From: Odontesthes bonariensis
Lineage: Eukaryota > Chordata > Actinopteri > Atheriniformes > Atherinopsidae
Direction of reading: 5' to 3'
Assembly (NCBI RefSeq): GCF_027942865.1
Contig: NC_134516.1
Span: 25,875,322 to 25,939,321, forward strand
Length of the DNA stretch: 64,000 nt
The notes under the pieces are model-generated. The model was not told the origin of the DNA. It ran no database searches and saw nothing but the letters and a program-made list of their open reading frames with translations. Positions within the stretch are counted from its first letter, which is position 1; every line of letters starts with the position of its first letter. Position numbers and translations under genes: made by a program. Positions 15,542 through 43,340 of the stretch are shown one piece after another.

Positions 15542-15689
15542 TCTGCTGCAATATAATTAAAGCTTGCCTGGGACCTGCTCCTGCCAAACTGCACTAACAC
15601 AAAGTTCAGAGCCCTGTGACACTAACCTGAAGCTGCAGGAGCTGCTTTCATATGATCCTCAGTGCAGAGGGAACTGATTGCTCAGCGGT

Positions 15690-20555: not shown

Positions 20556-22222
20556 ATTGGAAAGATTTAAGAGTCTGGATTCATCATACAGTGAGGGAAG
20601 AATCCCACCCCAACCTCATGCACTTTCCACCATTTTCTCCAAAGAATGTGCATAAAGTTGAAGTGCATGTCCTACTGAGGAATCCACATGAATTTTCAAG
20701 AGTTTCCTACTATTTGGTTGACAGTCCTGGAATCTTGTCCAATCACTGAAGCAGTCAGTTAAGAATCACACCCAAACTTCAAAGCACTTTCCACCATTTT
20801 CCCCAAAGAATGTGCATAAAGTTGAAGTGCATGTCCTACTGAGGTATCCACACCACTATTTGAGATCATTTCTTATTCTTTGGAAGACAGTCCAGGAAAT
20901 ATCTGTTCAGAATCACACCCAAACTTAACAGGACTTTCCACCATGTTCTCAAAAAAAGTGGATAACGGTGAGCTTGCCGTTCAGCTCACACGAGGAAGAT
21001 CTGCAGGTCATGAAACTACCCCAACAAGAAGCACTTACTATAATGAAGAACAGCTCAGTGTTTCTATTAGGGCACTTATCATGACAAAGTCTTGCTTCTG
21101 ATAGAAAATAAGTGTCATTCTAATCGTGACCACAATATTGATCTTCTACTTGACTTGAAAAATCACATGTCATCCCTAGATGTAATACACAGTTTGTTTC
21201 AAAGGTTCAGATCTTGTACATTTTCACTACCAAGACAACCCCAAAGAGAAGCACTTTTGAGCACAAGAATCAGGAGTTACTCCTTTGAGGTGATCTGAGA
21301 GTGATTTGCCCTCAAAAATGAGGCTTCACATTTAGGCAGTGAATGTGGTCTGTCCCAGAGTGTCGCACTCTTTCACTTCAAAGCCATGTAAATGCTCAAA
21401 TTAGGTAGAAATTAAATAGAAATTCCTTGCAAATACATTTTTATCTATAGTTCATATTTTGTAGGAGGATCTTTGAATGAGAGCCGTCTGCAAGATTACC
21501 CCAACAAGTAGCACTTACTTTATGAAGAAATGTAGTCAGTGCCTGTGTTAAGGTAATGTTGGGGACAAATTCAGGAAAGAACAGTCATGTCTTATTGAAG
21601 AAAATCTCACAAGAGAAACAACCCCAAAAGAGAAGCACTTATGAAATCAAGAACCATCAGTGTGTCTGTTTGAGGTGGTCTCCATGTGATACACTCATCT
21701 GCTAGCTTCAGTTACAGTCAATAGCATTTGTCGTGTACAATCGCCCCAACCAGAAGCACTTCCTGAACTCAAACACAAGTCAGCACAGACAATGAATCCG
21801 ATTTTTTTCTTACATGAATTTCTCCTCACTCCAGTTGATGCTTTCTTGTGTCCTCCACGTTGCGTTTCCAACTGGGTGAGTGTGTTGAACAGAGTTGCCC
21901 ATTTTATATGCTCAGTGCTTGTGGTTAAAAAAAACTCCACCTTCCTTTTCCACAAGGTTTCTATGGTCCAGGCAATGGGCCATTAAACAACCATTCAAAG
22001 AAGAATCGTTTTGGAATGAATGCAGACATGAGGGCAGTTAGGTGTTGATGAGTGATCAATCAGCTTTCTGCAGGTTTGCTTCATGAAACTTGTTTGACAA
22101 AGGAAGCCTCCAGTTGGAGTTCCATCACACGTACTTCAAAACAAGACAAACCCAAATGTATAGTCTGGTATCAAGTGTAAGAGACAGAAAAAGTGTGTGG
22201 ATTGTAAATTGGCTCCCCACAC
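20556..22222 (-). ncRNA. mir430: miR-430 array unit 1
   Basis: Leftmost unit, last in transcription order. Mature-arm positions: F 20607-20628, G 20770-20792 (variant CCCAAAC), H 20917-20939, A 21018-21037, B 21238-21257, C 21498-21517, D 21621-21642, E 21743-21762. The minus-strand TATAAAA-type motif is at 21903-21908. Confidence 0.93.
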
Positions 22223-23905
22223 TGTGGAAAGATTTAAGAGTCTGGATTCATCATACAGTGAGGCAAGAATCCCACCCCAACCTCATGCACTTTCCACCAT
22301 TTTCTCCAAAGAATGTGCATAAAGTTGAAGTGCATGTCCTACTGAGGAATTCACATGAATTTTCAAGAGTTTCCTACTATTTAGAAGACAGTCCTGGAAA
22401 TGTCTTCAATCACTGAAGCAGTCAGTTAAGAATCACACCCCAACTTCAAAGCACTTTCCACCATTTTCACCAAAGAATGTGCATAAAGTTGAAGTGCATG
22501 TCCTACTGAGGTATCCACACCACTATTTGAGATCATTTCTTATTCTTTGGAAGACAGTCCAGGAAATGTCTTCAATCGCTGAAGGAGTCTGTTCAGAATC
22601 TCACCCAAACTTAACAGGACTTTCCACCACGTTCTCAAAAAAAAGTGGATAACGATGAGCTTGCCGTTCAGCTCACACGAGGAAGATCTGCAGGTCATGA
22701 AACTACCCCAACAAGAAGCACTTACTATAATGAGGAACAGCTCAGTGTTTCTATTAGGGCACTTGTCATGACAAAGTCTTGCTTCTGATAGAAAACAAGT
22801 GTCATTCTAATCGTGACCACAATATTGATCTTCTATTTGACTTGGAAAATCACATGTCATCCCTAGAAGTAATAGTTTTTTTAAAAGGTTCAGATCTTGT
22901 ACATTTTCACTACCAAGACAACCCCAAAGAGAAGCACTTTTGAGCACAAGAATCAGGAGTGACTCCTTTGAGCTGATCTGAGAGTGATTTGCCCTCAAAA
23001 ATGAGGCTTCACATTTAGGCAGTGAATGTGGTCTGTCCCAGAGTGTCGCACTCTTTCACTTCAAAGCCATGTAAATGCTCAAATTAGTTAGAAATTAAAT
23101 AGAAATTCCTTGCAAATACATTTTTATCTATAGTTCATATTTTGTAGGAGGATCTTTGAATGAGAGCCGTCTGCAAGATTACCCCAACAAGTAGCACTTA
23201 CTTTTTGAAGAAATGTAGTCAGTGCCTGTGTTAAGGTAATGTTGGGGACAAATTCAGGAAAGAACAGTCATGTCTTATTGAAGAAAATCTCACAAGCGAA
23301 ACAACCCCAAAAGAGAAGCACTTATGAAATCAAGAACCACCAGTGTGTCTGTTTGAGGTGGTCTCCATGTGATACACTCATCTGCTAGCTTCAGTTACAG
23401 TCAATAGCATTTGTCGTGTACAATCGCCCCAACCAGAAGCACTTCCTGAACTCAAACACAAGTCAGCACAGACAATGAATCCGATTTTTTTCTTACATGA
23501 ATTTCTCCTCACTCCAGTTGATGCTTTCTTGTGTCCTCCACGTTGCGTTTCCAACTGGGTGAGTGTGTTGAACAGAGTTGCCCATTTTATATGCTCAGTG
23601 CTTGTGGTTAAAAAAAACTCCACCTTCCTTTTCCACAAGGTTTCTATGGTCCAGGCAATGGGCCATTAAACAACCATTCAAAGAAGAATCGTTTTGGAAT
23701 GAATGCAGACATGAGGGCAGTTAGGTGTTGATGAGTGATCAATCAGCTTTCTGCAGGTTTGCTTCATGACACTTGTTTGACAAAGGAAGCCTCCAGTTGG
23801 AGTTCCATCACACGTACTTCAAAACAAGACAAACCCAAATGTATAGTCTGGTATCAAGTGTAAGAGACAGAAAAAGTGTGTGGATTGTAAATTGGCTCCC
23901 CACAC
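22223..23905 (-). ncRNA. mir430: miR-430 array unit 2
   Basis: Mature arms: F 22274-22295, G 22437-22459, H 22603-22625, A 22705-22724, B 22921-22940, C 23181-23200, D 23304-23325, E 23426-23445. TATA motif 23586-23591. Closely similar to unit 1 across the spacer. Confidence 0.93.
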
Positions 23906-25740
23906 TGTGGAAAGATTTAAGAGTCTGGATTCATCATACAGTGAGGCAAGAATCCCACCCCAACCTCATGCACTTTCCACCATTGTCTCCAAAGAATGTG
24001 CATAAAGTTGAAGTGCATGTCCTACTGAGGAATTCACATGAATTTTCAAGAGTTTCCTACTATTTGGTTGACAGTCCTGGAAACTTGTCCTAAAATTGAA
24101 GCAGTCAGTTAAGAATCACACCCCAACTTCAAAGCACTTTCCACCATTTTCCCCAAAGAATGTGCATAAAGTTGAAGTGCATGTCCTACTGAGGAATCCA
24201 CATGAATTTTCAAGAGTTTCCTACTATTTGGTTGACAGTCCTGGAAACTTGTCCAATAATTGAAGCAGTCAGTTAAGAATCACACCCCAACTTCAAAGCA
24301 CTTTCCACCATTTTCCCCAAAGAATGTGCATAAAGTTGAAGTGCATGTCCTACTGAGGTATCCACACGACTATTTGAGATAATTTTTTATTCTTTGGAAG
24401 ACACTCCAGGAAATGTCTTCAATCGCTGAAGGAGTCTGTTCAGAATCGCATCCAAACTTAACAGGACTTTCCACCATGTTCTCAAAAAAAAGTGGATAAC
24501 GGTGAGCTTGCCGTTCAGCTCACACGAGGAAGATCTGCAGGTCATGAAACTACCCCAACAAGAAGCACTTACTATAATGAGGAACAGCTCAGTGTTTCTA
24601 TTAGGGCACTTATCATGACAAAGTCTAGCTTCCGATTGAAAATAAGTGTCATTTTAATCGTGACCACAATATTGGTCTTCTATTTGTCTTGGAAAATCAC
24701 ATGTCATCCCTGGAAGTAATCCACAGTTTGTTTCAAAGGTTCAGATCTTGTACATTTTCACTACCAAGACAACCCCAAAGAGAAGCACTTTTGAGCACAA
24801 GAATCAGGAGTGACTCCTTTGAGGTGATCTGAGAGTGATTTGCCCTCAAAAATGAGGCTTCACATTTACGCAGTGATTGTGGTCTGTCCCAGAGTGTCGC
24901 ACTCTTTCACTTCAAAGCCATGTAAATGCTCAAATTAGGTAGAAATGAAATAGAAATTCCTTGCAAATACATTTTTATCTATAGTTCATATTTTGTAGTA
25001 GGATTTTTTAATGAGAGCCGTCTGCAAGATTACCCCAACAAGTAGCACTTACTTTTTGAAGAAATGTAGTCAGTGCCTGTGTTAAGGTAATGTTGGGGAC
25101 AAATTTAATAAAGAACAGTCATGTCTTATTGAAGAAAATCTCACAAGCGAAACAACCCCAAAAGAGAAGCACTTATGAAATCAAGAACCATCAGTGTGTC
25201 TGTTTGAGGTGGTCTCCATGTGATATACTCATCCTCTAGCATCAGTTACAGTCAATAGCATTTGTCGTGTACAATCGCCCCAACCAGAAGCACTTCCTGA
25301 ACTCAAACACGAGTCAGCACAGACAGTGAATCAGATTTTTTTCTTACATGAATTTCTCCTGAGTCCAGTCGATGCTTTCTTGTGTCCCACTGGGTGAGTG
25401 TGTTGAACAGTGTTGCCCAGTTTATATGCTCAGTGTTTGTGGTTCCAACAAACTCCACCTTCCTTTTTCACAAGGTTTCTATGGTCCAGGCAATGGGCCA
25501 TTAAACAACCATTCAAAGAAGAATCGTTTTGGAATGAATGCAGACATGAGGGCAGTTAGGTGTTGATGAGTGATCAATCAGCTTTCTGCAGGTTTGCTCC
25601 ATGAAACTTGTTTGACAAAGGAAGCCTCCAGTTGGAGTTCCATCACACGTACTTCAAAACAAGACAAACCCAAATGTATAGTCTGGTATCAAGTGTAAGA
25701 GACAGAAAAAGTGGGTGGATTGTAAATTGGCTCCCCACAC
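23906..25740 (-). ncRNA. mir430: miR-430 array unit 3
   Basis: Mature arms: F 23957-23978, G 24120-24142 and 24284-24306, H 24450-24472 (GCATCCAAAC variant), A 24552-24571, B 24772-24791, C 25032-25051, D 25155-25176, E 25277-25296. TATA 25421-25426. It shares private variants with unit 7 (CCTAAAATTGAAG, GATTTTTTAATGAG, AATTTAATAAAG). Confidence 0.93.
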
Positions 25741-27573
25741 TGTGGAAAGATTTAAGAGTCTGGATTCATCAAACAGTGAGGCAAGAATCCCACCCCAACC
25801 TCATGCACTTTCCACCATTTTCTCCAAAGAATGTGCATAAAGTTGAAGTGCATGTCCTACTGAGGAATCCACGTGAATTTTCAAGAGTTTCCTACTATTT
25901 GGTTGACAGTCCTGGAAACTTGTCCAATAATTGAAGCAGTCAGTTAAGAATCACACCCCAACTTCAAAGCACTTTCCACCATTTTCCCCAAAGAATGTGC
26001 ATAAAGTTGAAGTGCATGTCCTACTGAGGAATCCACATGAATTTTCAAGAGATTCCTACTATTTGGTTGACAGTCCTGGAAACTTGTCCAATAATTGAAG
26101 CAGTCAGTTAAGAATCACACCCCAACTTCAAAGCACTTTCCACCATTTTCCCCAAAGAATGTGCATAAAGTTGAAGTGCATGTCCTACTGAGGTATCCAC
26201 ACGACTATTTGAGATAATTTCTCATTCTTTGGAAGACAGTCCAGGAAATGTCTTCAATTGCTGAAGGAGTCTGTTCAGAAACACACCAAACTTAACAGGA
26301 CTTTCCTCCATGTTCTCAAAAAAAGTGGATAACGGTGAGCTTGCCGTTCAGCTCACACGAGGAAGATCTGCAGGTCATGAAACTACCCCAACAAGAAGCA
26401 CTTACTATAATGAGGAACAGCTCAGTGTTTCTGTTAGGGCACTTATCATGACAAAGTCTCGCTTCTGATAGAAAATAAGTGTCATTCTAATCGTGGCCAC
26501 AATATTGATCTTGTACTTGACTTGAAAAATCACATGTCATCCCTAGATGTAATACACAGTTTGTTTCAAAGGTTCAGATCTTGTACATTTTCACTACCAA
26601 GACAACCCCAAAGAGAAGCACTTTTGAGCACAAGAATCAGGAGTGACTCCTTTGAGGTGATCTGAGAGTGATTTGCCCACAAAAACGAGGCTTCACATTT
26701 ACCCAGTGGATGTGGTCTGTCCCAGAGTGTCGCACCCTTTCACTTCAAAGCCATGTAAATGCTCAAATTAGGTAGAAATTAAATAGAAATTCCTTGCAAA
26801 TACATTTTTATCTATAGTTCATATTTTGTAGGAGGATCTTTGAATGAGAGCCGTCTGCAAGATTACCCCAACAAGTAGCACTTACTTTTAGAAGAAATGT
26901 AGTCAGTGCCTGTGTTAAGGTAATGTTGGGGACAAATTCAGGAAAGAACAGTCATGTCTTATTGAAGAAAATCTCACAAGCGAAACAACCCCAAAAGAGA
27001 AGCACTTATGAAATCAATAACCATCAGTGTGTCTGTTTGAGGTGGTCTCCATGTGATATACTCATCCTCTAGCATCAGTTACAGTCAATAGCATTTGTCG
27101 TGTACAATCGCCCCAACCAGAAGCACTTCCTGAACTCAAACACGAGTCAGCACAGACAGTGAATCAGATTTTTTTCTTACATGAATTTCTCCTCACTCCA
27201 GTTGATGCTTTTTTGTGTCCTCCACGTTGCGTTTCCCACTGGGTGAGTGTGTTGAACAGAGTTGCCCAGTTTATATGCTCAGTGTTTGTGGTTCCAACAA
27301 ACTCCACCCTCCTTTTCCACAAGGTTTCTGAGGTCCAGGCAATGGGCCATTAAACAACCATTCAAAGAAGAATCGTTTTGGAATGAATGCAGACATGAGG
27401 GCAGTTAGGTGTTGATGAGTGATCAATCAGCTTTTTGCAGGTTTGCTCCATGAAACTTGTTTGACAAAGGAAGCCTCCAGTTGGAGTTCCATCACACGTA
27501 CTTCAAAACAAGATAAAACCAAATGTACAGTCTGGAATCAAGTGTAAGAGACAGAAAAAGTGGCTCCCCACAC
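25741..27573 (-). ncRNA. mir430: miR-430 array unit 4
   Basis: Mature arms: F 25792-25813, G 25955-25977 and 26119-26141, H 26285-26305, A 26385-26404, B 26605-26624, C 26865-26884, D 26988-27009, E 27110-27129. TATA 27270-27275. Nearly identical to unit 8, which lacks both G arms. Confidence 0.93.
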
Positions 27574-29078
27574 TGTGGAAAGATTTAAGAGTCTGGATTC
27601 ATCATACAGTGAGGCAAGAATCCCACCCCAACCTCATGCACTTTCCAGCATTTTCTCCAAAGAATGTGCATAAAGTTGAAGTGCATGTCCTACTGAGGAA
27701 TCCACATGAATCTTCAAGAGTTTCCTACTATTTAGAAGACTACTATTTAAATGTCTTCAATCGCTGAAGCAGTCAGTTAAGAATCACACCCCAACTTCAA
27801 AGCACTTTCCACCATGTTCTCAAAAAAAAGTGGATAACAGTGAGCTTGCCGTTCAGCTCACACGAGGAAGATCTGCAGGTCATGAAACTACCCCAACAAG
27901 AAGCACTTACTATAATGAGGAACAGCTCAGTGTTTCTATTAGGGCACTTGTCATTACAAAGTCTTGCTTCCGATTGAAAATAAGTGTCATTTTAATCGTG
28001 ACCACAATATTGGTCTTCTATTTGTCTTGGAAAATCACATGTCATCCCTGGAAGTAATCCACAGTTTGTTTCAAAGGTTCAGATCTTGTACATTTTCACT
28101 ACCAAGACAACCCCAAAGAGAAGCACTTTTGATCACAAGAATAAGGAGTGACTCCTTTGAGGTGATCTGAGAGTGATTTGCCCTCAAAAATGAGGCTTCA
28201 CATTTACGCAGTGATTGTGGTCTGTCCCAGAGTGTCGCACTCTTTCACTTCAAAGCCATGTAAATGCTCAAATTAGGTAGAAATGAAATAGAAATTCCTT
28301 GCAAATACATTTTTATCTATAGTTCATATTTTGTAGTAGGATTTTTGAATGAGAGCCGTCTGCAAGATTACCCCAACGAGTAGCACTTACTTTATGAAGA
28401 AATGTAGTCAGTGCCTGTGTTACGTTAATCTTGGGAACAAATTCAGGAAAGAACAGTCATGTCTTATTGAAGAAAATCTCACAAGCGAAACAACCCCAAA
28501 AGAGAAGCACTTATGAAATCAAGAACCATCAGTGTGTCTGTTTGAGGTGGTCTCCATGTGATATACTCATCCTCTAGCATCAGTTACAGTCAATAGCATT
28601 TGTCGTGTACAATCGCCCCAACCAGAAGCACTTCCTGAACTCAAACACGAGTCAGCACAGACAGTGAATCAGATTTTTTTCTTACATGAATTTCTCCTGG
28701 GTCCAGTCGATGCTTTCTTGTGTCCCACTGGGTGAGTGTGTTGAACAGAGTTGCCCAGTTTATATGCTCAGTGTTTGTGGTTCCAACAAACTCCACCTTC
28801 CTTTTTCACAAGGTTTCTATGGTCCAGGCAATGGGCCATTAAACAACCATTCAAAGAAGAATCGTTTTGGAATGAATGCAGACATGAGGGCAGTTAGGTG
28901 TTGATGAGTGATCAATCAGCTTTCTGCAGGTTTGCTCCATGAAACTTGTTTGACAAAGGAAGCCTCCAGTTGGAGTTCCATCACACGTACTTCAAAACAA
29001 GACAAAACCAAATGTATAGTCTTGTATCAAGTGTAAGAGACAGAAAAAGTGGGAGGATTGTAAATTGGCTCCCCACAC
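27574..29078 (-). ncRNA. mir430: miR-430 array unit 5
   Basis: Mature arms: F 27625-27646, G 27788-27810 (a G mature strand joined to H flanking sequence), A 27890-27909, B 28110-28129, C 28370-28389 (CAACGAG variant), D 28493-28514, E 28615-28634. TATA 28759-28764. No separate H arm: the G-H interval was lost by unequal exchange. Confidence 0.92.
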
Positions 29079-30764
29079 TGTGGAAAGATTTAAGAGTCTG
29101 GATTCATCATACAGTGAGGCAAGAATCCCACCCCAACCTCATGCACTTTCCACCATTTTCTCCAAAGAATGTGCATAAAGTTGAAGTGCATGTCCTACTG
29201 AGGAATCCACGTGAATTTTCAAGAGTTTCCTACTATTTGGTTGACAGTCCTGGAAACTTGTCCAATAATTGAAGCAGTCAGTTAAGAATCACACCCCAAC
29301 TTCAAAGCACTTTCCACCATTTTCCCCAAAGAATGTGCATAAAGTTGAAGTGCATGTCCTACTGAGGTATCCACACGACTATTTGAGATAATTTCTTATT
29401 CTTTGGAAGACAGTCCAGGAAATGTCTTCAATTGCTGAAGGAGTCTGTTCAGAAACACACCAAACTTAACAGGACTTTCCTCCATGTTCTCAAAAAAAGT
29501 GGATAACGGTGAGCTTGCCGTTCAGCTCACACGAGGAAGATCTGCAGGTCATGAAACTACCCCAACAAGAAGCACTTACTATAATGAGGAACAGCTCAGT
29601 GTTTCTGTTAGGGCACTTATCATGACAAAGTCTCGCTTCTGATAGAAAATAAGTGTCATTCTAATCGTGGCCACAATATTGATCTTGTACTTGACTTGAA
29701 AAATCACATGTCATCCCTAGATGTAATACACAGTTTGTTTCAAAGGTTCAGATCTTGTACATTTTCACTACCAAGACAACCCCAAAGAGAAGCACTTTTG
29801 AGCACAAGAATCAGGAGTGACTCCTTTGAGGTGATCTGAGAGTGATTTGCCCACAAAAACGAGGCTTCACATTTACCCAGTGGATGTGGTCTGTCCCAGA
29901 GTGTCGCACCCTTTCACTTCAAAGCCATGTAAATGCTCAAATTAGGTAGAAATTAAATAGAAATTCCTTGCAAATACATTTTTATCTATAGTTCATATTT
30001 TGTAGTAGGATCTTTGAATGAGAGCCGTCTGCAAGATTACCCCAACAAGTAGCACTTACTTTTTGAAGAAATGTAGTCAGTGCCTGTGTTAAGGTAATGT
30101 TGGGGACAAATTCAGGAAAGAACAGTCATGTCTTATTGAAGAAAATCTGACGAGCGAAACAACCCCAAAAGAGAAGCACTTATGAAATCAAGAACCATCA
30201 GTGTGTCTGTTTGAGGTGGTCTCCATGTGATACACTCATCTGCTAGCTTCAGTTACAGTCAATAGCATTTGTCATGTACAATCGCCCCAACCAGAAGCAC
30301 TTTCCTGAACTCAAACACAAGTCAGCACAGACAGTGAATCCGATTTTTTTCTTACATGAATTTCTCCTCGCTCCAGTTGATGCTTTCTTGTGTCCTCCAC
30401 GTTGCGAATCCAACTGGGTGAGTGTGTTGAACAGAGTTGCCCAGTTTATATGCTCAGTGTTTGTGGTTCCAACAAACTCCACCTTCCTTTTTCACAAGGT
30501 TTCTATGGTCCAGGCAATGGGCCATTAAACAACCATTCAAAGAAGAATCGTTTTGGAATGAATGCAGACATGAGGGCAGTTAGGTGTTGATGAGTGATCA
30601 ATCAGCTTTCTGCAGGTTTGCTCCATGAAACTTGTTTGACAAAGGAAGCCTCCAGTTGGAGTTCCATCACACGTACTTCAAAACAAGACAAAACCAAATG
30701 TATAGTCTTGTATCAAGTGTAAGAGACAGAAAAAGTGGGAGGATTGTAAATTGGCTCCCCACAC
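29079..30764 (-). ncRNA. mir430: miR-430 array unit 6
   Basis: Mature arms: F 29130-29151, G 29293-29315, H about 29459-29480, A 29559-29578, B 29779-29798, C 30039-30058, D 30162-30183, E 30284-30304 (one extra T after GCACTT). TATA 30445-30450. Confidence 0.93.
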
Positions 30765-30814
30765 TGTGGAAAGATTTAAGAGTCTGGATTCATCATACAG
30801 TGAGGCAAGAATCC

Positions 30815-30874
30815 CACCCCAACCTCATGCACTTTCCACCATTTTCTCCAAAGAATGTGCATAAAGTTGAAGTG
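30815..30874 (-). ncRNA. mir430: miR-430 type F hairpin (example, unit 7)
   Basis: The 3' arm GAAAGUGCAUGAGGUUGGGG pairs with the 5' arm CACUUCAACUUUAUGCACAU+UC: I count 21 of 22 positions paired (including G:U), with one A:A mismatch opposite the seed side. The loop is about 16 nt. The extended perfect stem is the best structural evidence in the array that these are pre-miRNAs. Confidence 0.95.
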
Positions 30875-31141
30875 CATGTCCTACTGAGGAATCCACATGA
30901 ATTTTCAAGAGTTTCCTACTATTTGGTTGACAGTCCTGGAAACTTGTCCTAAAATTGAAGCAGTCAGTTAAGAATCACACCCCAACTTCAAAGCACTTTC
31001 CACCATTTTCCCCAAAGAATGTGCATAAAGTTGAAGTGCATGTCCTACTGAGGAATCCACATGAATTTTCAAGAGTTTCCTACTATTTGGTTGACAGTCC
31101 TGGAAACTTGTCCAATAATTGAAGCAGTCAGTTAAGAATCA

Positions 31142-31202
31142 CACCCCAACTTCAAAGCACTTTCCACCATTTTCCCCAAAGAATGTGCATAAAGTTGAAG
31201 TG
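31142..31202 (-). ncRNA. mir430: miR-430 type G hairpin (example, unit 7)
   Basis: The mature arm GAAAGUGCUUUGAAGUUGGGG faces the same 5' arm as type F, with one bulge. G and F are sister subtypes that differ at mature positions 10-15. G sits in a 164-bp subrepeat whose number varies from 0 to 4 per unit. Confidence 0.93.
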
Positions 31203-31308
31203 CATGTCCTACTGAGGTATCCACACGACTATTTGAGATAATTTTTTATTCTTTGGAAGACACTCCAGGAAATGTCTTCAATCGCTGAAGGAGTCTGTTC
31301 AGAATCGC

Positions 31309-31385
31309 ATCCAAACTTAACAGGACTTTCCACCATGTTCTCAAAAAAAAGTGGATAACGGTGAGCTTGCCGTTCAGCTCACACG
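31309..31385 (-). ncRNA. Type H: degenerate miR-430-like arm (example, unit 7)
   Basis: The arm reads GAAAGUCCUGUUAAGUUUGG: the AAGUGC seed is AAGUCC. The sequence on its 5' side (minus strand) folds on itself (AACGG...CCGUU) rather than pairing with the arm. It occurs in 10 of 12 units and always keeps the altered seed. It is probably a dead hairpin carried along with the unit, though a new-seed miRNA is possible. Confidence 0.5.
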
Positions 31386-31399
31386 AGGAAGATCTGCAG

Positions 31400-31478
31400 G
31401 TCATGAAACTACCCCAACAAGAAGCACTTACTATAATGAGGAACAGCTCAGTGTTTCTATTAGGGCACTTATCATGAC
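31400..31478 (-). ncRNA. mir430: miR-430 type A hairpin (example, unit 7)
   Basis: The stem is closed by GUCAUGA/UCAUGAC. The 5' arm is AAGUGCCCUAAUAGAAACAC and the 3' mature arm UAAGUGCUUCUUGUUGGGGU. All 12 copies in the array keep the mature 20 nt. Confidence 0.95.
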
Positions 31479-31624
31479 AAAGTCTAGCTTCCGATTGAAA
31501 ATAAGTGTCATTTTAATCGTGACCACAATATTGGTCTTCTATTTGTCTTGGAAAATCACATGTCATCCCTGGAAGTAATCCACAGTTTGTTTCAAAGGTT
31601 CAGATCTTGTACATTTTCACTACC

Positions 31625-31688
31625 AAGACAACCCCAAAGAGAAGCACTTTTGAGCACAAGAATCAGGAGTGACTCCTTTGAGGTGATC
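31625..31688 (-). ncRNA. mir430: miR-430 type B hairpin (miR-430c-like; example, unit 7)
   Basis: The 5' arm CACCUCAAAGGAGUCACUCC pairs with the mature arm AAAGUGCUUCUCUUUGGGGU. Apart from the first base, this is the zebrafish miR-430c sequence as I know it. Twelve copies, all with the same core. Confidence 0.96.
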
Positions 31689-31887
31689 TGAGAGTGATTT
31701 GCCCTCAAAAATGAGGCTTCACATTTACGCAGTGATTGTGGTCTGTCCCAGAGTGTCGCACTCTTTCACTTCAAAGCCATGTAAATGCTCAAATTAGGTA
31801 GAAATGAAATAGAAATTCCTTGCAAATACATTTTTATCTATAGTTCATATTTTGTAGTAGGATTTTTTAATGAGAGCCGTCTGCAAG

Positions 31888-31950
31888 ATTACCCCAACAA
31901 GTAGCACTTACTTTTTGAAGAAATGTAGTCAGTGCCTGTGTTAAGGTAAT
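31888..31950 (-). ncRNA. mir430: miR-430 type C hairpin (example, unit 7)
   Basis: The stem is AUUACC...GGGGUAAU; the 5' arm continues UUAACACAGGCACUGACU and the mature arm is UAAGUGCUACUUGUUGGGGU. Eleven copies; units 5 and 9 carry single-base changes outside the seed. Confidence 0.94.
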
Positions 31951-32007
31951 GTTGGGGACAAATTTAATAAAGAACAGTCATGTCTTATTGAAGAAAATCT
32001 CACAAGC

Positions 32008-32076
32008 GAAACAACCCCAAAAGAGAAGCACTTATGAAATCAAGAACCATCAGTGTGTCTGTTTGAGGTGGTCTCC
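32008..32076 (-). ncRNA. mir430: miR-430 type D hairpin (miR-430c-like; example, unit 7)
   Basis: The mature arm UAAGUGCUUCUCUUUUGGGG matches miR-430c with one extra U in the U run. The 5' arm is ACCACCUCAAACAGACACAC. Eleven copies, all seed-intact. Confidence 0.95.
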
Positions 32077-32130
32077 ATGTGATATACTCATCCTCTAGCA
32101 TCAGTTACAGTCAATAGCATTTGTCGTGTA

Positions 32131-32195
32131 CAATCGCCCCAACCAGAAGCACTTCCTGAACTCAAACACGAGTCAGCACAGACAGTGAATCAGAT
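32131..32195 (-). ncRNA. mir430: miR-430 type E hairpin (example, unit 7)
   Basis: The mature arm is GGAAGUGCUUCUGGUUGGGG, with AAUC/GAUU at the base of the stem. The 5' arm (UUCACUGUCUGUGCUGAC) pairs less well than in the other types, so processing may be weaker. E is the first hairpin after the spacer TATA motif. Eleven copies, ten with an intact seed. Confidence 0.8.
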
Positions 32196-32279
32196 TTTTT
32201 TCTTACATGAATTTCTCCTGGGTCCAGTCGATGCTTTCTTGTGTCCCACTGGGTGAGTGTGTTGAACAGTGTTGCCCAG

Positions 32280-32285
32280 TTTATA
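32280..32285 (-). promoter_or_regulatory. Recurrent minus-strand TATA motif of the miR-430 units
   Basis: TATAAA (context GAGCATATAAACTGGG) lies in the ~500-bp hairpin-free spacer of each complete unit, about 125-145 nt upstream of hairpin E. It is present in all 11 spacers; positions are given under each unit. In units 1 and 2 the context is CATATAAAATGGG. The same spacer holds CCTTTGTC (Sox-like) and GCTGATTGATC (Nanog-like) sites on the minus strand. This fits one promoter per unit. The zebrafish miR-430 locus is reported to have very many promoters; here the function is inferred. Confidence 0.5.
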
Positions 32286-32599
32286 TGCTCAGTGTTTGTG
32301 GTTCCAACAAACTCCACCTTCCTTTTTCACAAGGTTTCTATGGTCCAGGCAATGGGCCATTAAACAACCATTCAAAGAAGAATCGTTTTGGAATGAATGC
32401 AGACATGAGGGCAGTTAGGTGTTGATGAGTGATCAATCAGCTTTCTGCAGGTTTGCTCCATGAAACTTGTTTGACAAAGGAAGCCTCCAGTTGGAGTTCC
32501 ATCACACGTACTTCAAAACAAGACAAACCCAAATGTATAGTCTGGTATCAAGTGTAAGAGACAGAAAAAGTGGGTGGATTGTAAATTGGCTCCCCACAC

Positions 32600-34104
32600 T
32601 GTGGAAAGATTTAAGAGTCTGGATTCATCAAACAGTGAGGCAAGAATCCCACCCCAACCTCATGCACTTTCCACCATTTTCTCCAAAGAATGTGCATAAA
32701 GTTGAAGTGCATGTCCTACTGAGGTATCCACACGACTATTTGAGATAATTTCTTATTCTTTGGAAGACAGTCCAGGAAATGTCTTCAATTGCTGAAGGAG
32801 TCTGTTCAGAAACACACCAAACTTAACAGGACTTTCCTCCATGTTCTCAAAAAAAGTGGATAACGGTGAGCTTGCCGTTCAGCTCACACGAGGAAGATCT
32901 GCAGGTCATGAAACTACCCCAACAAGAAGCACTTACTATAATGAGGAACAGCTCAGTGTTTCTGTTAGGGCACTTATCATGACAAAGTCTCGCTTCTGAT
33001 AGAAAATAAGTGTCATTCTAATCGTGGCCACAATATTGATCTTGTACTTGACTTGAAAAATCACATGTCATCCCTAGATGTAATACACAGTTTGTTTCAA
33101 AGGTTCAGATCTTGTACATTTTCACTACCAAGACAACCCCAAAGAGAAGCACTTTTGAGCACAAGAATCAGGAGTGACTCCTTTGAGGTGATCTGAGAGT
33201 GATTTGCCCACAAAAACGAGGCTTCACATTTACCCAGTGGATGTGGTCTGTCCCAGAGTGTCGCACCCTTTCACTTCAAAGCCATGTAAATGCTCAAATT
33301 AGGTAGAAATTAAATAGAAATTCCTTGCAAATACATTTTTATCTATAGTTCATATTTTGTAGGAGGATCTTTGAATGAGAGCCGTCTGCAAGATTACCCC
33401 AACAAGTAGCACTTACTTTTAGAAGAAATGTAGTCAGTGCCTGTGTTAAGGTAATGTTGGGGACAAATTCAGGAAAGAACAGTCATGTCTTATTGAAGAA
33501 AATCTCACAAGCGAAACAACCCCAAAAGAGAAGCACTTATGAAATCAATAACCATCAGTGTGTCTGTTTGAGGTGGTCTCCATGTGATATACTCATCCTC
33601 TAGCATCAGTTACAGTCAATAGCATTTGTCGTGTACAATCGCCCCAACCAGAAGCACTTCCTGAACTCAAACACGAGTCAGCACAGACAGTGAATCAGAT
33701 TTTTTTCTTACATGAATTTCTCCTCACTCCAGTTGATGCTTTTTTGTGTCCTCCACGTTGCGTTTCCCACTGGGTGAGTGTGTTGAACAGAGTTGCCCAG
33801 TTTATATGCTCAGTGTTTGTGGTTCCAACAAACTCCACCCTCCTTTTCCACAAGGTTTCTGAGGTCCAGGCAATGGGCCATTAAACAACCATTCAAAGAA
33901 GAATCGTTTTGGAATGAATGCAGACATGAGGGCAGTTAGGTGTTGATGAGTGATCAATCAGCTTTTTGCAGGTTTGCTCCATGAAACTTGTTTGACAAAG
34001 GAAGCCTCCAGTTGGAGTTCCATCACACGTACTTCAAAACAAGATAAAACCAAATGTACAGTCTGGAATCAAGTGTAAGAGACAGAAAAAGTGGCTCCCC
34101 ACAC
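32600..34104 (-). ncRNA. mir430: miR-430 array unit 8 (no G hairpin)
   Basis: Mature arms: F 32651-32672, H about 32817-32838, A 32916-32935, B 33136-33155, C 33396-33415, D 33519-33540, E 33641-33660. TATA 33801-33806. It is shorter than unit 4 by exactly two 164-bp G subrepeats. Confidence 0.93.
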
Positions 34105-35589
34105 TGTGGAAAGATTTAAGAGTCTGGATTCATCATACAGTGAGGCAAGAATCCCACCCCAACCTCATGCACTTTCCAGCATTTTCTCCAAAGAATGTGC
34201 ATAAAGTTGAAGTGCATGTCCTACTGAGGAATCCACATGAATCTTCAAGAGTTTCCTACTATTTAGAAGACTACTATTTAAATGTCTTCAATCGCTGAAG
34301 CAGTCAGTTAAGAATCACACCCCAACTTCAAAGCACTTTCCACCATGTTCTCAAAAAAAAGTGGATAACAGTGAGCTTGCCGTTCAGCTCACACGAGGAA
34401 GATCTGCAGGTCATGAAACTACCCCAACAAGAAGCACTTACTATAATGAGGAACAGCTCAGTGTTTCTATTAGGGCACTTATCATGACAAAGTCTTGCTT
34501 CTGATAGAAAATAAGTGTCATTCTAATCGTGACCACAATATTGGTCTTCTATTTGTCTTGGAAAATCACATGTCATCCCTGGAAGTAATCCACAGTTTGT
34601 TTCAAAGGTTCAGATCTTGTACATTTTCACTACCAAGACAACCCCAAAGAGAAGCACTTTTGATCACAAGAATAAGGAGTGACTCCTTTGAGGTGATCTG
34701 AGAGTGATTTGCCCTCAAAAATGAGGCTTCACATTTACGCAGTGATTGTGGTCTGTCCCAGAGTGTCGCACTCTTTCACTTCAAAGCCATGTAAATGCTC
34801 AAATTAGGTAGAAATGAAATAGAAATTCCTTGCAAATACATTTTTATCTATAGTTCATATTTTGTAGTAGGATTTTTGAATGAGAGCCGTCTGCAAGATT
34901 ACCCCAACAAGTTGCACTTACTTTTTGAAGAAATGTAGTCAGTGCCTGTGTTACGTTAATGTTGGGAACAAATTCAGGAAAGAACAGTCATGTCTTATTG
35001 AAGAAAATCTCACAAGCGAAACAACCCCAAAAGAGAAGCACTTATGAAATCAAGAACCATCAGTGTGTCTGTTTGAGGTGGTCTCCATGTGATATACTCA
35101 TCCTCTAGCATCAGTTACAGTCAATAGCATTTGTCGTGTACAATCGCCCCAACCAGAAGCACTTCCTGAACTCAAACACGAGTCAGCACAGACAGTGAAT
35201 CAGATTTTTTTCTTACATGAATTTCTCCTGGGTCCAGTCGATGCTTTCTTGTGTCCCACTGGGTGAGTGTGTTGAACAGAGTTGCCCAGTTTATATGCTC
35301 AGTGTTTGTGGTTCCAACAAACTCCACCTTCCTTTTTCACAAGGTTTCTATGGTCCAGGCAATGGGCCATTAAACAACCAAAGAAGAATCGTTTTGGAAT
35401 GAATGCAGACATGAGGGCAGTTAGGTGTTGATGAGTGATCAATCAGCTTTCTGCAGGTTTGCTCCATGAAACTTGTTTGACAAAGGAAGCCTCCAGTTGG
35501 AGTTCCATCACACGTACTTCAAAACAAGACAAAACCAAATGTACAGTCTGGAATCAAGTGTAAGAGACAGAAAAAGTGGCTCCCCACAC
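34105..35589 (-). ncRNA. mir430: miR-430 array unit 9
   Basis: Mature arms: F 34156-34177, G 34319-34341 (G/H hybrid as in unit 5), A 34421-34440, B 34641-34660, C 34901-34920 (GTTGCACTT, seed kept), D 35024-35045, E 35146-35165. TATA 35290-35295. Unit 5 duplicate at offset 6531. Confidence 0.92.
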
Positions 35590-35796
35590 TGTGGAAAGAT
35601 TTAAGAGTCTGGATTCATCATACAGTGAGGCAAGAATCCCACCCCAACCTCATGCACTTTCCACCATTTTCTCCAAAGAATGTGCATAAAGTTGAAGTGC
35701 ATGTCCTACTGAGGAATCCACGTGAATTTTCAAGAGTTTCCTACTATTTGGTTGACAGTCCTGGAAACTTGTCCAATAATTGAAGCAGTCAGTTAA

Positions 35797-36686
35797 GGTG
35801 CCGTTTACACATACCCGGGTATTTTGAAAAACGAAGACCTTTCCCTTCGTTTGTGCCTTTCGTTTACACACAAAACGGAGTTTTTTCCTCCGAAAACGAA
35901 GCTAAAAAAAAACTCCGGCAAAAGTGGAGATTTTTTAAAAACTCCGTTTAGCGTTTGTGTGTAAACTGGTTGAAAGACGAAAACGGAGTTTTCAGAATGG
36001 AATGCGGACTTGTCGTCATAGTACAGAGCCCCGCCCCTATCCACCATAGTGGCAGGATAACGCCATTCATTGTTTATCTGGCAAGCATGGAGGTACTAGC
36101 AGCATTTATTTTGTTGAGAGCTATACTCGCTTGTGTGATTTTGAAAATTACACTCCTACAAAGTATTGAACAACAAAGGCGCATTACGGCGCGGAGGGCA
36201 ACAATTGCGGAGCTTCTGTTGGCAGACAGAGCCCGGCCATACCACCGCCAGCGACGGCGATTCTGGATTAGACCCGGACGGACTGCTTTATGGTGGGAAA
36301 ATTTTGAAAATGGCTTTGTTGTCCCGGAGGAATGGAGGGAAAATTTCAGGATGTCACGATTTTCACTCCTTTCCCTAGCAGAACTGCTACGCCCGCACAT
36401 CCAGGGTGAGAGTACTCACATGCGCGCTTCTGTTGATGTTGTGAAGAAAGTTGCCTGTCAGCGGTTCTCTATTAGGCTTCTGATTGGCTTGTGTGGAATT
36501 CTCATTGTTCTAACATTGCCACCGTCAGGCTTGGCGTAATTTAACAGCTCCTGATAGCGTATTTCTCCGGATCAATGTAGACGGGGTTTTTTTAAAAAAC
36601 GGGGCTGTGTGCACGGGTTTTTTTTTTAAAACGAAGGTTAGAAAATATGCGTTTTTCAAAATACCCAGGTATGTGTAAACGGCGCC
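35797..36686 (+). mobile_element. PIF/Harbinger element inserted in miR-430 unit 10 (890 bp)
   Basis: Terminal inverted repeats read GGTGCCGTTTACACATACCC (left) and GGCGCCGTTTACACATACCT (right, reverse-complemented). TAA flanks both ends (35794-35796 and 36687-36689). The uninterrupted array sequence CAGTCAGTTAAGAATCACACC in other units is the empty site. The element encodes only the N-terminal part of a Harbinger transposase and is therefore non-autonomous. Confidence 0.95.
36088..36539 (+). pseudogene. Truncated Harbinger transposase N-terminus
   Basis: From ATG 36088 the frame runs 150 codons. It contains FWIRPGRTALWWENFENGFV and VPEEWRENFRMSRFSL, then LLRPHIQGESTHMR, a hallmark N-terminal region of Harbinger nucleases. 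The frame then leaves the family (...VKKVACQRFSIRLLIG) and the whole DDE catalytic domain is absent, consistent with an internal deletion. Confidence 0.8.
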
Positions 36687-38624
36687 TAAGAATCACACCC
36701 CAACTTCATGCACTTTCCACCATTTTCCCCAAAGAATGTGCATAAAGTTGAAGTGCATGTCCTACTGAGGAATCCACATGAATTATCAAGAGTTTCCTAC
36801 TATTTGTTGACAGTCCTGGAAACTTGTCCAATAATTGAAGCAGTCAGATAAGAATCACACCCTAACTTCAAAGCACTTTCCACCATTTTCCCCAAAGAAT
36901 GTGCATAAAGTTGAAGTGCATGTCCTACTGAGGTATCCACATGAATTTTCAAGAGTTTCCTACTATTTGGTTGACAGTCCTGGAAACTTGTCCAATAATT
37001 GAAGCAGTCAGTTAAGAATCACACCCCAACTTCAAAGCACTTTCCACCATTTCCCCAAAGAATGTGCATAAAGTTGAAGTGCATGTCCTACTGAGGAATC
37101 CACATGAATTTTCAAGAGTTTCCTACTATTTGGTTGACAGTCCTGGAAACTTGTCCAATAATTGAAGCAGTCAGTTAAGAATCACACCCCAACTTCAAAG
37201 CACTTTCCACCATTTTCCCCAAAGAATGTGCATAAAGTTGAAGTGCATGTCCTACTGAGGTATCCACACGACTATTTGAGATCATTTCTTAGTCTTTGGA
37301 AGACAGTCCAGGAAATGTCTTCAATTGCTGAAGGAGTCTGTTCAGAAACACACCAAACTTAACAGGACTTTCCACCATGTTCTCAAAAAAAGTGGATAAC
37401 GGTGAGCTTGCCGTTCAGCTCACACGAGGAAGATCTGCAGGTCATGAAACTACCCCAACAAGAAGCACTTACTATAATGAGGAACAGCTCAGTGTTTCTG
37501 TTAGGGCACTTATCATGACAAAGTCTCGCTTCTGATAGAAAATAAGTGTCATTCTAATTGTGGCCACAATATTGATCTTCTACTTGACTTGAAAAATCAC
37601 ATGTCATCCCTAGATGTAATACACAGTTTGTTTCAAAGGTTCAGATCTTGTACATTTTCACTACCAAGACAACCCCAAAGAGAAGCACTTTTGAGCACAA
37701 GAATCAGGAGTGACTCCTTTGAGGTGATCTGAGAGTGATTTGCCCACAAAAACGAGGCTTCACATTTACCCAGTGGATGTGGTCTGTCCCAGAGTGTCGC
37801 ACCCTTTCACTTCAAAGCCATGTAAATGCTCAAATTAGGTAGAAATTAAATAGAAATTCCTTGCAAATACATTTTTATCTATAGTTCATATTTTGTAGTA
37901 GGATCTTTGAATGAGAGCCGTCTGCAAGATTACCCCAACAAGTAGCACTTACTTTTTGAAGAAATGTAGTCAGTGCCTGTGTTAAGGTAATGTTGGGGAC
38001 AAATTCAGGAAAGAACAGCCATGTCTTATTGAAGAAAATCTCACAAGCGAAACAACCCCAAAAGAGAAGCACTTATGAAATCAAGAACCATCAGTGTGTC
38101 TGTTTGAGGTGGTCTCCATGTGATATACTCATCCTCTAGCATCAGTTACAGTCAATAGCATTTGTCGTGTACAATCGCCCCAACCAGAAGCACTTCCTGA
38201 ACTCAAACACGAGTCAGCACAGACAGTGAATCAGATTTTTTTCTTACATGAATTTCTCCTGGGTCCAGTCGATGCTTTCTTGTGTCCCACTGGGTGAGTG
38301 TGTTGAACAGAGTTGCCCAGTTTATATGCTCAGTGTTTGTGGTTCCAACAAACTCCACCCTCCTTTTCCACAAGGTTTCTGAGGTCCAGGCAATGGGCCA
38401 TTAAACAACCATTCAAAGAAGAATCGTTTTGGAATGAATGCAGACATGAGGGCAGTTAGGTGTTGATGAGTGATCAATCAGCTTTTTGCAGGTTTGCTCC
38501 ATGAAACTTGTTTGACAAAGGAAGCCTCCAGTTGGAGTTCCATCACACGTACTTCAAAACAAGACAAAACCAAATGTACAGTCTGGAATCAAGTGTAAGA
38601 GACAGAAAAAGTGGCTCCCCACAC

Positions 38625-40293
38625 TGTGGAAAGATTTAAGAGTCTGGATTCATCATACAGTGAGGCAAGAATCCCACCCCAACCTCATGCACTTTCCAGC
38701 ATTTTCTCCAAAGAATGTGCATAAAGTTGAAGTGCATGTCCTACTGAGGAATCCACATGAATCTTCAAGAGTTTCCTACTATTTAGAAGACTACTATTTA
38801 AATGTCTTCAATCGCTGAAGCAGTCAGTTAAGAATCACACCCCAACTTCAAAGCACTTTCCACCATTTTCCCCAAAGAATGTGCATAAAGTTGAAGTGCA
38901 TGTCCTACTGAGGTATCCACACCACTATTTGAGATAATTTCTTATTCTTTGGAAGACAGTCCAGGAAATGTCTTCAATTGCTGAAGGAGTCTGTTCAGAA
39001 ACACACCAAACTTAACAGGACTTTCCACCATGTTCTCAAAAAAAGTGGATAACGGTGAGCTTGCCGTTCAGCTCACACGAGGAAGATCTGCAGGTCATGA
39101 AACTACCCCAACAAGAAGCACTTACTATAATGAGGAACAGCTCAGTGTTTCTATTAGGGCACTTATCATGACAAAGTCTCGCTTCTGATAGAAAATAAGT
39201 GTCATTCTAATCGTGACCACAATATTGATCTTCTATTTGACTTGGAAAATCACATGTCATCCCTAGATGTAATACACAGTTTGTTTCAAAGGTTCAGATC
39301 TTGTACATTTTCACTACCAAGACAACCCCAAAGAGAAGCACTTTTGAGCACAAGAATCAGGAGTGACTCCTTTGAGGTGATCTGAGAGTGATTTGCCCTC
39401 AAAAATGAGGCTTCACATTTACGTAGTGGATGTGGTCTGTCCCAGAGTGTCGCACTCTTTCACTTCAAAGCCATGTAAATGCTCAAATTAGGTAGAAATT
39501 AAATAGAAATTCCTCTCAAATACATTTTTATCTATAGTTCATATTTTGTAGTAGGATCTTTGAATGAGAGCCGTCTGCAAGATTACCCCAACAAGTAGCA
39601 CTTACTTTTTGAAGAAATGTAGTCAGTGCCTGTGTTAAGGTAATGTTGGGAACAAATTCAGGAAAGAACAGTCATGTCTTATTGAAGAAAATCTCACGAG
39701 CGAAACAACCCCAAAAGAGAAGCACTTATGTAATCAAGAACCACCAGTGTGTCTGTTTGAGGTGGTCTCCATGTGATACACTCATCTGCTAGCTTCAGTT
39801 ACAGTCAATAGCATTTGTCGTGTACAATCGCCCCAACCAGAAAGACTTCCTGAACTCAAACACAAGTCAGCACAGACAGTGAATCAGATTTTTTTCTTAC
39901 ATGAATTTCTCCTCGCTCCAGTTGATGCTTTCTTGTGTCCTCCACGTTGCGTTTCCCACTGGGTGAGTGTGTTGAACAGAGTTGCCCAGTTTATATGCTC
40001 AGTGTTTGTGGTTCCAACAAACTCCACCTTCCTTTTTCACAAGGTTTCTATGGTCCAGGCAATGGGCCATTAAACAACCATTCAAAGAAGAATCGTTTTG
40101 GAATGAATGCAGACATGAGGGCAGTTAGGTGTTGATGAGTGATCAATCAGCTTTCTGCAGGTTTGCTCCATGAAACTTGTTTGACAAAGGAAGCCTCCAG
40201 TTGGAGTTCCATCACACGTACTTCAAAACAAGACAAAACCAAATGTATAGTCTGGAATCAAGTGTAAGAGACAGAAAAAGTGGCTCCCCACAC
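38625..40293 (-). ncRNA. mir430: miR-430 array unit 11 (E seed lost)
   Basis: Mature arms: F 38676-38697, G 38839-38861, H 39005-39025, A 39105-39124, B 39325-39344, C 39585-39604, D 39708-39729, E 39830-39850. In E, AGAAGCACTT has become AGAAAGACTT, so the AAGUGC seed is gone. TATA 39990-39995. Confidence 0.92.
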
Positions 40294-41204
40294 TGTGGAA
40301 AGATTTAAGAGTCTGGATTCATCATACAGTGAGGCAAGAATCCCACCCCAACCTCATGCACTTTCCACCATTTTCTCCAAAGAATGTGCATAAAGTTGAA
40401 GTGCATGTCCTACTGAGGAATCCACATGAATTTTCAAGAGTTTCCTACTATTTGGTTGACAGTCCTGGAAACTTGTCCAATAATTGAAACAGTCAGTTAA
40501 GAATCACACCCCAACTTCAAAGCACTTTCCACCATTTTCGCCAAAGAATGTGCATAAAGTTGAAGTGCATGTCCTACTGAGGTATCCACACGACTATTTG
40601 AGATCATTTCTTATTCTTTGGAAGACAGTCCAGGAAATGTCTTCAATCACTGAAGGAGTCTGTTCAGAAACACACCAAACTTAACAGGACTTTCCACCAT
40701 GTTCTCAAAAAAAGTGGATAACGGTGAGCTTGCCGTTCAGCTCACACGAGGAAGATCTGCAGGTCATGAAACTACCCCAACAAGAAGCACTTACTATAAT
40801 GAGGAACAGCTCAGTGTTTCTATTAGGGCACTTATCATGACAAAGTCTCGCTTCTGATAGAAAATAAGTGTCATTCTAATTGTGGCCACAATATTGATCT
40901 TCTATTTGACTTGGAAAATCACATGTCATCCCTGGAAGTAATCCAGTTTGTCTCAAAGGTTCAGATCTTGTACATTTTCACTACCAACACAACCCCAAAG
41001 AGAAGCACTTTTGAGCACAAGAATCAGGAGTGACTCCTTTGAGGTGATCTGAGAGTGATTTGCCCTCAAAAATGAGGCTTCACATTTACGCAGTGGATGT
41101 GGTCTGTCCCAGAGTGTCACACCCTTTCACTTCAAAGCCATGTAAATGCTCAAATTAGGTAGAAATTAAATAGAAATTCCTTGAAAATTCATTTTTTATC
41201 TATT
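40294..41204 (-). ncRNA. mir430: miR-430 array unit 12 (truncated at right)
   Basis: Mature arms: F 40345-40366, G 40508-40530, H about 40674-40695, A 40774-40793, B 40992-41011. Homology stops at about 41204 in the B-C spacer, where a LINE 3' end begins, so C, D, E and the TATA-bearing spacer of this unit are missing. Confidence 0.92.
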
Positions 41205-41640
41205 GTTAGATTGTACAAATGTACAAACAGTTCAAAGTGCTTTATATAAAATAAAAGCATTGCAGCAGGGAGTGCAAGAAGCATTAAAAATACATAAAAG
41301 AATATAAAGAGAAACAAATAAAATCATTTAAATTAATTTAAAAACAGGCAACAGTCTAGATAAGTTAAAAGATATTTCATGCATAGACACATGAGAAAAG
41401 AAATGTCTTTAACCTGGATTTAAAAATGTCTACATTTGGTGAAAGTTTAATCTCCACTGGCAGTTTGTTCCACTTGTTTGCAGCATAACAGCTAAATGCT
41501 GCTTCTCCATGTTTAGTCTGGACTCTGGACTGGACCAGCTGACCTGAGTCCTTGGATCTAAGAGCTCTGCTGGGTTTATATTCTCTGAACATATCACAGA
41601 TGTATTTTGGGCCTAAACCGTTCTGGGATTTGTAAACCAT
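41205..41640 (-). mobile_element. 5'-truncated LINE (L2/Rex1-like) ending the array
   Basis: The minus-strand ORF 41640-41377 carries the C-terminal end of a LINE reverse transcriptase (SKDSGQLVQSRVQTKHGEA, WNKLPVEIKLSPNVDIFKSR, LKTFLF). An A/T-rich 3' UTR follows and reaches the point where miR-430 homology stops. It cut off or replaced the start of the array. Confidence 0.75.
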
Positions 41641-41650
41641 CAGCAGGCTT

Positions 41651-43080: not shown

Positions 43081-43340
43081 CATGGTTCATAAAACTGATG
43101 AAAGAATAAAGAGCAGGAACTGGATCCATTTCAGGAAACAAGGTCCTGAGACTCTCCCAAAACTAACTGACTTCAAAAAATTTTTTTTATCAAGTCTGAC
43201 CAAAGAACACACTCAAAATAACCATGATGCTCATTTAAAGGTCCATCATTTGATCAAGACCAACAATGCAAAGCATTCAGTAGAACCCTGCTAACAACCA
43301 GTTTCTCATGCTAAGTCGTAGCTAGCTCTGATGGACAACA

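Follow-up and report, generated by a model that had tools for sequence, protein, structure and literature searches.

Is a long tandem repeat in the fish Odontesthes bonariensis a plain satellite, or does it encode microRNAs? The repeat lies in a 64,000-nucleotide stretch of contig NC_134516.1 (positions 25,875,322 to 25,939,321; here called the window, in whose coordinates all positions are given), where it forms an array of about 20.6 kb, free of N, at 20556..41204, with both ends approximate. We conclude with high confidence that the minus strand of this array encodes a miR-430 microRNA cluster whose complete units would each have a TATA promoter of their own, and we propose a route from transcription to processing. 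Family, strand, arms, unit structure and a conserved promoter-like block are directly established, together with hairpins for 73 of the 86 arms. Loci of this kind are already known; what stands out here is the repeat unit, which has many hairpins and, wherever it is complete, a promoter-like block.

Family membership is carried by the Rfam miR-430 model RF01413, which yielded 22 matches above its curated cut-off of 47.3 bits, all on the minus strand and all inside the array (within 21011-40835; best E 1.7e-11). A permissive Rfam search of 20400-41400 returned 73 minus-strand miR-430 matches at E<=1, and unit U2, used as a query, had no match outside the array within the window at E<=1e-3. The hairpins lie in tandem on one strand, as is typical of miR-430 clusters. 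A previous sequence-only reading had described the limits, strand and motif of the repeat, which recurrence, alignment and seed counts confirm, and had placed miR-430 sequences on minus-strand 3' arms, an identity now strongly supported by Rfam, by the folds and by the similarity of the arms to mature miR-430 of a killifish. Nine plus-strand miR-430 matches and four mir-1420 matches from Rfam were rejected; they overlap minus-strand type C hairpins at lower scores (about half, in the case of miR-430).

The motif AAGTGC, whose first base we use as the position of an arm, has 97 minus-strand occurrences in the array: 85 on 3' arms and 12 on type A 5' arms. We rejected the latter as second seeds because, by our reading of the fold, they lie at the base of the stem. 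By type, the seeded arms comprise E (AAGUGCUUCUGG; 10 arms), D (AAGUGCUUCUCUUUUGGGG; 11), C (AAGUGCUACUUG; 11), B (AAGUGCUUCUCUUUGGGG; 12), A (AAGUGCUUCUUG; 12), T2 (AAGUGCUUUGAAG; 16, in a 164-bp repeat that a unit may lack or have up to three times) and T1 (AAGUGCAUGAGG; 13, one hybrid included). Along the direction of transcription each unit runs from the promoter-like block through E, D, C, B, A and a T relic to T2 (0-3 copies) and T1, the T relic being a degenerate T-type arm (AAGTCC, that is AAGUCC) found in 10 of the 12 units; in U5 and U9 the T2 3' arm is fused to the 5' side of the T relic. We reproduced the earlier count of 85 AAGUGC seeds among 86 arms, the exception being the type E arm at 39848 (AAGTCT); with the 10 T relics included, the seed is kept in 85 of 96 arm-like copies. 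The extended seed AAGUGCA marks all 13 T1 arms and one C arm (34919); most arms of the array have AAGUGCU. The motif does recur in the units, as had been proposed, but not at a fixed eight per unit: from U1 to U12 the seeded arms number 7, 7, 8, 8, 7, 7, 8, 6, 7, 10, 6 and 4. Fuzzy matching of seven arm models gave 80 in-array copies (probably non-overlapping best matches only) and was set aside in favour of exact seed counting; its only two matches outside the array (18070 and 19852, six edits each) were treated as chance.

Types A-D are closest to the family model. Of these, A and C reach the curated cut-off in 22 of 23 arms (A 12/12, C 10/11), with representative minus-strand hairpins at 22698..22766 (A, 48.4 bits) and 23174..23243 (C, 69.6 bits). 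The representatives of D (23297..23365, 41.4 bits), B (24765..24831, 36.3 bits), T2 (22430..22501, 34.9 bits) and T1 (22267..22337, 33.5 bits), all on the same strand, fall below it; the mature arm of the type B representative resembles what we take to be the 'c' form of miR-430. We class T1 and T2, which have strong hairpins and the seed, as divergent relatives rather than certain members of miR-430. The type E representative (23420..23492, minus strand) folds with a weak 5' partner, and none of the 11 type E arms matched RF01413 at E<=1 in the permissive search.

Folding bore out the expectation of hairpins for 73 of the 86 arms. In windows of 57-77 nt, a precursor-microRNA hairpin was obtained for all A, B, C, D and T1 arms and for 14 of 16 T2 arms, but not for the 11 E arms or for two T2 arms, 27807 and 34338; these two passed the pairing test formally, and that pass was rejected after reading their folds. 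Type B gave the expected hairpin in 12 of 12 arms, at -19.0 to -23.1 kcal/mol. Comparing one representative per type with 300 shuffles, the fold z-scores were -7.24 for T1, -5.72 for T2, -4.63 for C, -4.37 for A, -2.54 for D and -2.00 for E. In fixed 66-nt windows, the share of 1500 random windows outside the array that fold to energies as low was 3.1% for C, 1.8% for B, 0.5% for T2, 0.3% for A and 0.1% for T1, and 3.8% and 5.6% of 1000 array-spacer windows were as low as D and E. When arms were swapped between types, C and B paired best with their own 5' arm, and T1 and T2 did so with the one common to both. Type E passed the pairing test in only 2 of 10 seeded arms, and its own-arm duplex reaches -11.4 kcal/mol, against -23.3 for the E 3' arm with the A 5' arm; type E has thus retained a good guide arm next to a 5' arm that pairs poorly with it, and is probably a decaying hairpin.

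Two subtypes had been said to match zebrafish miR-430c. Types B and D lie near the killifish sequence UAAGUGCUUCUCUUUGGGGUUG, at one edit (21 of 22 positions identical) and at two edits respectively, and none of the 2000 tail shuffles came as close; the letter 'c' for that sequence is our assumption. The comparison set consisted of the six N. furzeri miR-430 3p isoforms printed in the extracts of PMC12268015 used here, and tail shuffles (2000) served as the control throughout. A and C are three edits from other isoforms in this set (4 and 3 shuffles as close, respectively), and T1, E and T2 lie at chance-like distances, with 100, 103 and 554 shuffled tails as close (5-28%). Within the array itself, the alignment of units (1685 columns with at least six units) places variable columns at 5 of 154 in mature arms, 13 of 175 in star arms, 12 of 145 in loops, 4 of 98 at stem bases and 114 of 1113 in spacers; as an indicative figure, mature columns were as invariant in 2.0% of 1684 rotations.

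The longest invariant run in the same alignment lies upstream of the hairpins and spans 103 columns (permutation P ~0.008, likewise indicative). Ten copies of this 103-bp block are identical, and the U9 copy has a 4-bp deletion that the column test does not count. Starting 57 bp beyond it, GAGCATATAAA[A/C]TGGGCAAC[T/A]CTGTTCAACACACTCACCC is present in all 11 complete units. Over its whole minus strand the array has 11 copies of TATAAA, one at the corresponding place in each complete unit, so that a repeated TATA box upstream of the hairpins, the mark of a zebrafish-type promoter, is found in 11/11 complete units. We infer that block and TATAAA together form a TATA promoter, from which transcription would begin some 31 nt further downstream, and that there is probably one such promoter per 6-10 seeded arms. 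The minus-strand blocks lie at 21903..22067 (U1; invariant 103 bp at 21965-22067, TATAAA from 21908 down, predicted start near 21877), 23586..23750 (U2), 25421..25585 (U3), 27270..27434 (U4), 28759..28923 (U5), 30445..30609 (U6), 32280..32444 (U7), 33801..33965 (U8), 35290..35450 (U9, with the deletion inside), 38321..38485 (U10) and 39990..40154 (U11). Within the 103 bp, CTTTGAA is presumably HMG-box-like and TTTAATGG presumably homeobox-like.

We delimited the array and its units by 25-mer recurrence and unit alignment, cutting units at T1, with ends good to a few bases; all 22 above-cut-off RF01413 matches fall inside. Its 12 units, all on the minus strand, comprise one that is truncated (U12, 877 bp, cut off at ~41204), one enlarged by a transposon and additional T copies (U10, 3035 bp) and ten others of 1485-1835 bp, with pairwise identities of 93.8-99.9% over aligned bases. 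U1 (20590..22256) carries arms E 21761, D 21640, C 21516, B 21256, A 21036, T2 20789 and T1 20625, with a T relic at 20936; U2 (22257..23939) carries E 23444, D 23323, C 23199, B 22939, A 22723, T2 22456 and T1 22292, with a T relic at 22622. A T relic and two T2 copies are found in U3 (23940..25774; E 25295, D 25174, C 25050, B 24790, A 24570, T2 24303 and 24139, T1 23975), U4 (25775..27607; E 27128, D 27007, C 26883, B 26623, A 26403, T2 26138 and 25974, T1 25810) and U7 (30799..32633; E 32154, D 32033, C 31909, B 31649, A 31429, T2 31162 and 30998, T1 30834). U6 (29113..30798) has E 30302, D 30181, C 30057, B 29797, A 29577, T2 29312, T1 29148 and a T relic, and U8 (32634..34138) has E 33659, D 33538, C 33414, B 33154, A 32934, T1 32669 and a T relic. 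The T2 arm is recombinant and without a canonical hairpin in U5 (27608..29112; E 28633, D 28512, C 28388, B 28128, A 27908, T2 27807, T1 27643) and U9 (34139..35623; E 35164, D 35043, C 34919 with AAGUGCA, B 34659, A 34439, T2 34338, T1 34174). U10 (35624..38658), inside which the transposon lies, holds E 38195, D 38074, C 37950, B 37690, A 37470, T2 37205, 37042 and 36878, a T1/T2 hybrid at 36715, T1 35659 and a T relic, and U11 (38659..40327) holds E 39848 (seed lost), D 39727, C 39603, B 39343, A 39123, T2 38858, T1 38694 and a T relic. U12 (40328..41204), truncated at its upstream end, retains B 41010, A 40792, T2 40527, T1 40363 and a T relic; the remaining part has no promoter block, and its four arms are therefore either silent or dependent on a promoter outside the array.

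The array bears the marks of recent exchange. U3-U4-U5 and U7-U8-U9 match unit by unit over aligned bases (U3/U7 99.8%, U4/U8 99.9%, U5/U9 99.2%), which shows recent copying of a three-unit block, and U8 is 328 bp shorter than U4, that is, by twice the 164-bp T repeat. Sequence, unit alignment and an open reading frame (ORF) identify the insertion in U10 as an 890-bp DNA transposon (35797..36686) between T1 and the T hybrid; it has terminal inverted repeats alike at 35 of 37 positions and a TAA target duplication, both read by eye, and we take it to be PIF/Harbinger-like. Pfam gave no match for its ORF, for a LINE-like (long interspersed nuclear element) ORF beside the array or for four ORFs in the flanks.

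How might such an array work? In the reading that we propose, the TATA promoter of each complete unit would drive a minus-strand primary transcript carrying 6-10 seeded arms, ordered E-D-C-B-A-T2(0-3)-T1, from which Drosha and Dicer would release the AAGUGC-seeded 3' arms. In the blastula these would bind GCACUU sites of maternal messenger RNAs, leading to deadenylation and decay. Transcription, promoter use, processing, timing and targets are thus predicted for this array, and the clearance of maternal messenger RNA at zygotic activation is ascribed to it by analogy with its family, as that role appears in the extracts of PMC10417697 and PMC11075544 used here. The array may also be, as had been proposed, the functional miR-430 cluster of the species. 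Unequal exchange at three scales (the 164-bp T repeat, single units and the three-unit block) would keep it uniform.

Several observations weigh against this reading. Support from the family model at E<=1 extends to 73 of 86 arms, leaving out type E altogether (11 arms) and the two recombinant T2 arms (27807, 34338), and for many arms it is modest: all 23 B and D arms match at E<=1, yet with 27.3-46.3 bits against a cut-off of 47.3, and 27 of 29 T1 and T2 arms match at 25.9-34.9 bits (E 0.0037-0.65 in a search of all Rfam families). Type B in a wider window has a z-score of only -0.55, with 84 of 300 shuffles equally low, since a different, longer fold is preferred there. In the swapped-arm comparison A ties with the 5' arm of C, and D and E pair better with that of another type; 10.8% and 14.3% of the 1500 random windows outside the array are as low as D and E. 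Of the five variable mature columns two are in C, two in E and one in T2, and both the rotation and the invariant-run tests are indicative only, the units not being independent lineages. BLAST finds the three-unit blocks in larger pieces at 98.0 and 98.6%, below the unit figures because T copies have been lost. As for the promoters, PMC10417697, in the extracts used here, reports putative promoters in most species but finds the Danio promoter in no fish outside Danio.

Each of the rival explanations draws on some of these points. That the array is a plain satellite, whose hairpins are by-products of short inverted repeats and have no microRNA function, would suit high-copy tandem DNA in which some hairpins are weak; we consider this highly improbable in view of the Rfam family matches, the mature arm that is 21/22 identical to a killifish isoform in the extracts compared, and mature arms that vary less than spacers. 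A single promoter upstream of 41204, giving one transcript, with the 103-bp block as a conserved spacer or processing element, is the least unlikely of the alternatives, though still unlikely: the per-unit promoter call is made from sequence only, the first unit, having no block, would need an outside promoter, and the invariance of the block may come from recent gene conversion. Against it, block and sole TATAAA stand at a fixed distance in 11/11 complete units, and zebrafish uses repeated TATA-box promoters (PMC6370886, in extract).

A true miR-430 cluster that is a partly decayed secondary copy, with the main cluster elsewhere in the genome, seems to us improbable. Decay is visible in the weak 5' partner of type E, one lost seed, 10 relic T arms, a truncated first unit without promoter block and a transposon inside U10; the array also sits between duplicated segments, and in some species further loci are on record (PMC10417697, as extracted). 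Yet seeds are intact in 85 of 86 arms, mature arms are the least variable class, the promoter-like block is present in 11/11 complete units, the transposon falls between hairpins, homogenisation is recent, and most species in the same extracts have a single locus.

What, then, would such a cluster add? Tentatively, and with slightly less than even confidence, we suggest that the unit design is one without counterpart in the literature consulted: six or seven hairpin types, a divergent T1/T2 subfamily in a 164-bp sub-array, AAGUGCA (otherwise reported only from cichlids) in T1 and one conserved promoter per unit. If so, selection would preserve how many hairpins each promoter serves (6-10 here and, according to the extracts used, 6-9 in zebrafish) and not the unit layout. 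In fish, miR-430 clusters belong to the earliest zygotic genes, and their long repeats make them hard to assemble; with an array free of N, carrying promoter-like blocks and unit-specific variants, the first-firing units and the hairpins per start site become testable. One array, moreover, displays both the multiplication of hairpins (T repeats) and their decay (E and the T relics), and places the AAGUGCA seed in a non-cichlid fish.

The surroundings of the array were also characterised. Adjoining truncated U12 upstream, a minus-strand ORF at 41377-41721, which presumably resembles the end of a LINE reverse transcriptase and had no Pfam match, may mark what cut the array. On either side lies a direct segmental duplication (4878-17312 and 43804-60413; main pieces 83-98.6% identical) that carries fast-evolving reading frames, one with DUF1373 (PF07117), for which nothing was found in the open-licence literature. 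A 27-bp tandem repeat in a Gly/Ser-rich frame differs in copy number between the duplicated genes (about 6 copies at 11268-11432, about 18 at 52206-52694). The protein of 8337-8804 has a relative, P0151, filed under a Salmonella enterica assembly, a record that seems to be contaminated with fish sequence. TRIM16-like coiled-coil/PRY-SPRY exons form an inverted pair, 96.5% identical, at 18064-18927 (+) and 63146-64000 (-); among the best 120 of 2874 relatives, the exon adjoining the array has its nearest matches in Leuresthes tenuis (86%) and O. bonariensis (80%), Leuresthes being an atheriniform, within Ovalentaria. A second neighbouring gene is closest to an ENA sequence (90%), followed by Menidia menidia (71%), and Xenentodon cancila reaches 66%. 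By these neighbours alone the window would be assigned to an atherinomorph, probably a silverside. Farther out, 1863-4089 (-) contains hAT transposase-like fragments (a Pfam dimerisation domain in 1863-2441, the rest recognised by eye); transfer RNA models match at 16227-16299 (+), 43340-43413 (-), 59328-59400 (+) and, partially, at 1267-1333 (+; 38.5 bits), and no long inverted repeats were found in 1-20500.

How does this locus compare with known clusters? In the open-licence literature, within the text accessible there, AAGUGCA appears together with miR-430 only in PMC10417697, and the word stem atherin- together with miR-430 only in killifish work. The extracts of PMC10417697 describe tandem miR-430 organisation from cartilaginous to bony fishes, with consensus units of 251-1443 bp outside cichlids that hold one to four miR-430 sequences, whereas complete units here hold 6-10 seeded arms in at least 1485 bp; alike are the usual single tandem locus, units that often have a putative promoter, and concerted evolution. 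Those extracts report the AAGUGCA seed only from cichlids; T1 and the C arm at 34919 share it here, in a fish whose genes next to the array are not those of a cichlid, and it is by the seed that T1 is set beside the cichlid form. To the killifish isoforms (PMC12268015, PMC6127099, in extract) types B, D, A and C are near in the degrees given above, and E, T1 and T2 are not. The zebrafish cluster on chromosome 4 (PMC6370886, PMC11075544; Hadzhiev 2023 as cited in PMC10417697; all in extract) resembles the present array in its tandem hairpins and repeated TATA-box promoters. There, cap analysis of gene expression (CAGE) resolves no fewer than eight start sites, each serving 6-9 miR430 genes, and the TATA box sits in the canonical position (PMC6370886), to be set beside the 6-10 seeded arms per promoter-like block here. 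The two differ in their neighbours, znf genes in zebrafish and TRIM16-like and DUF1373 genes here, and in layout, since zebrafish repeats a-c-b triplets, two or three of them to each promoter, and the array of O. bonariensis has five non-T and 1-5 T-type arms per block.

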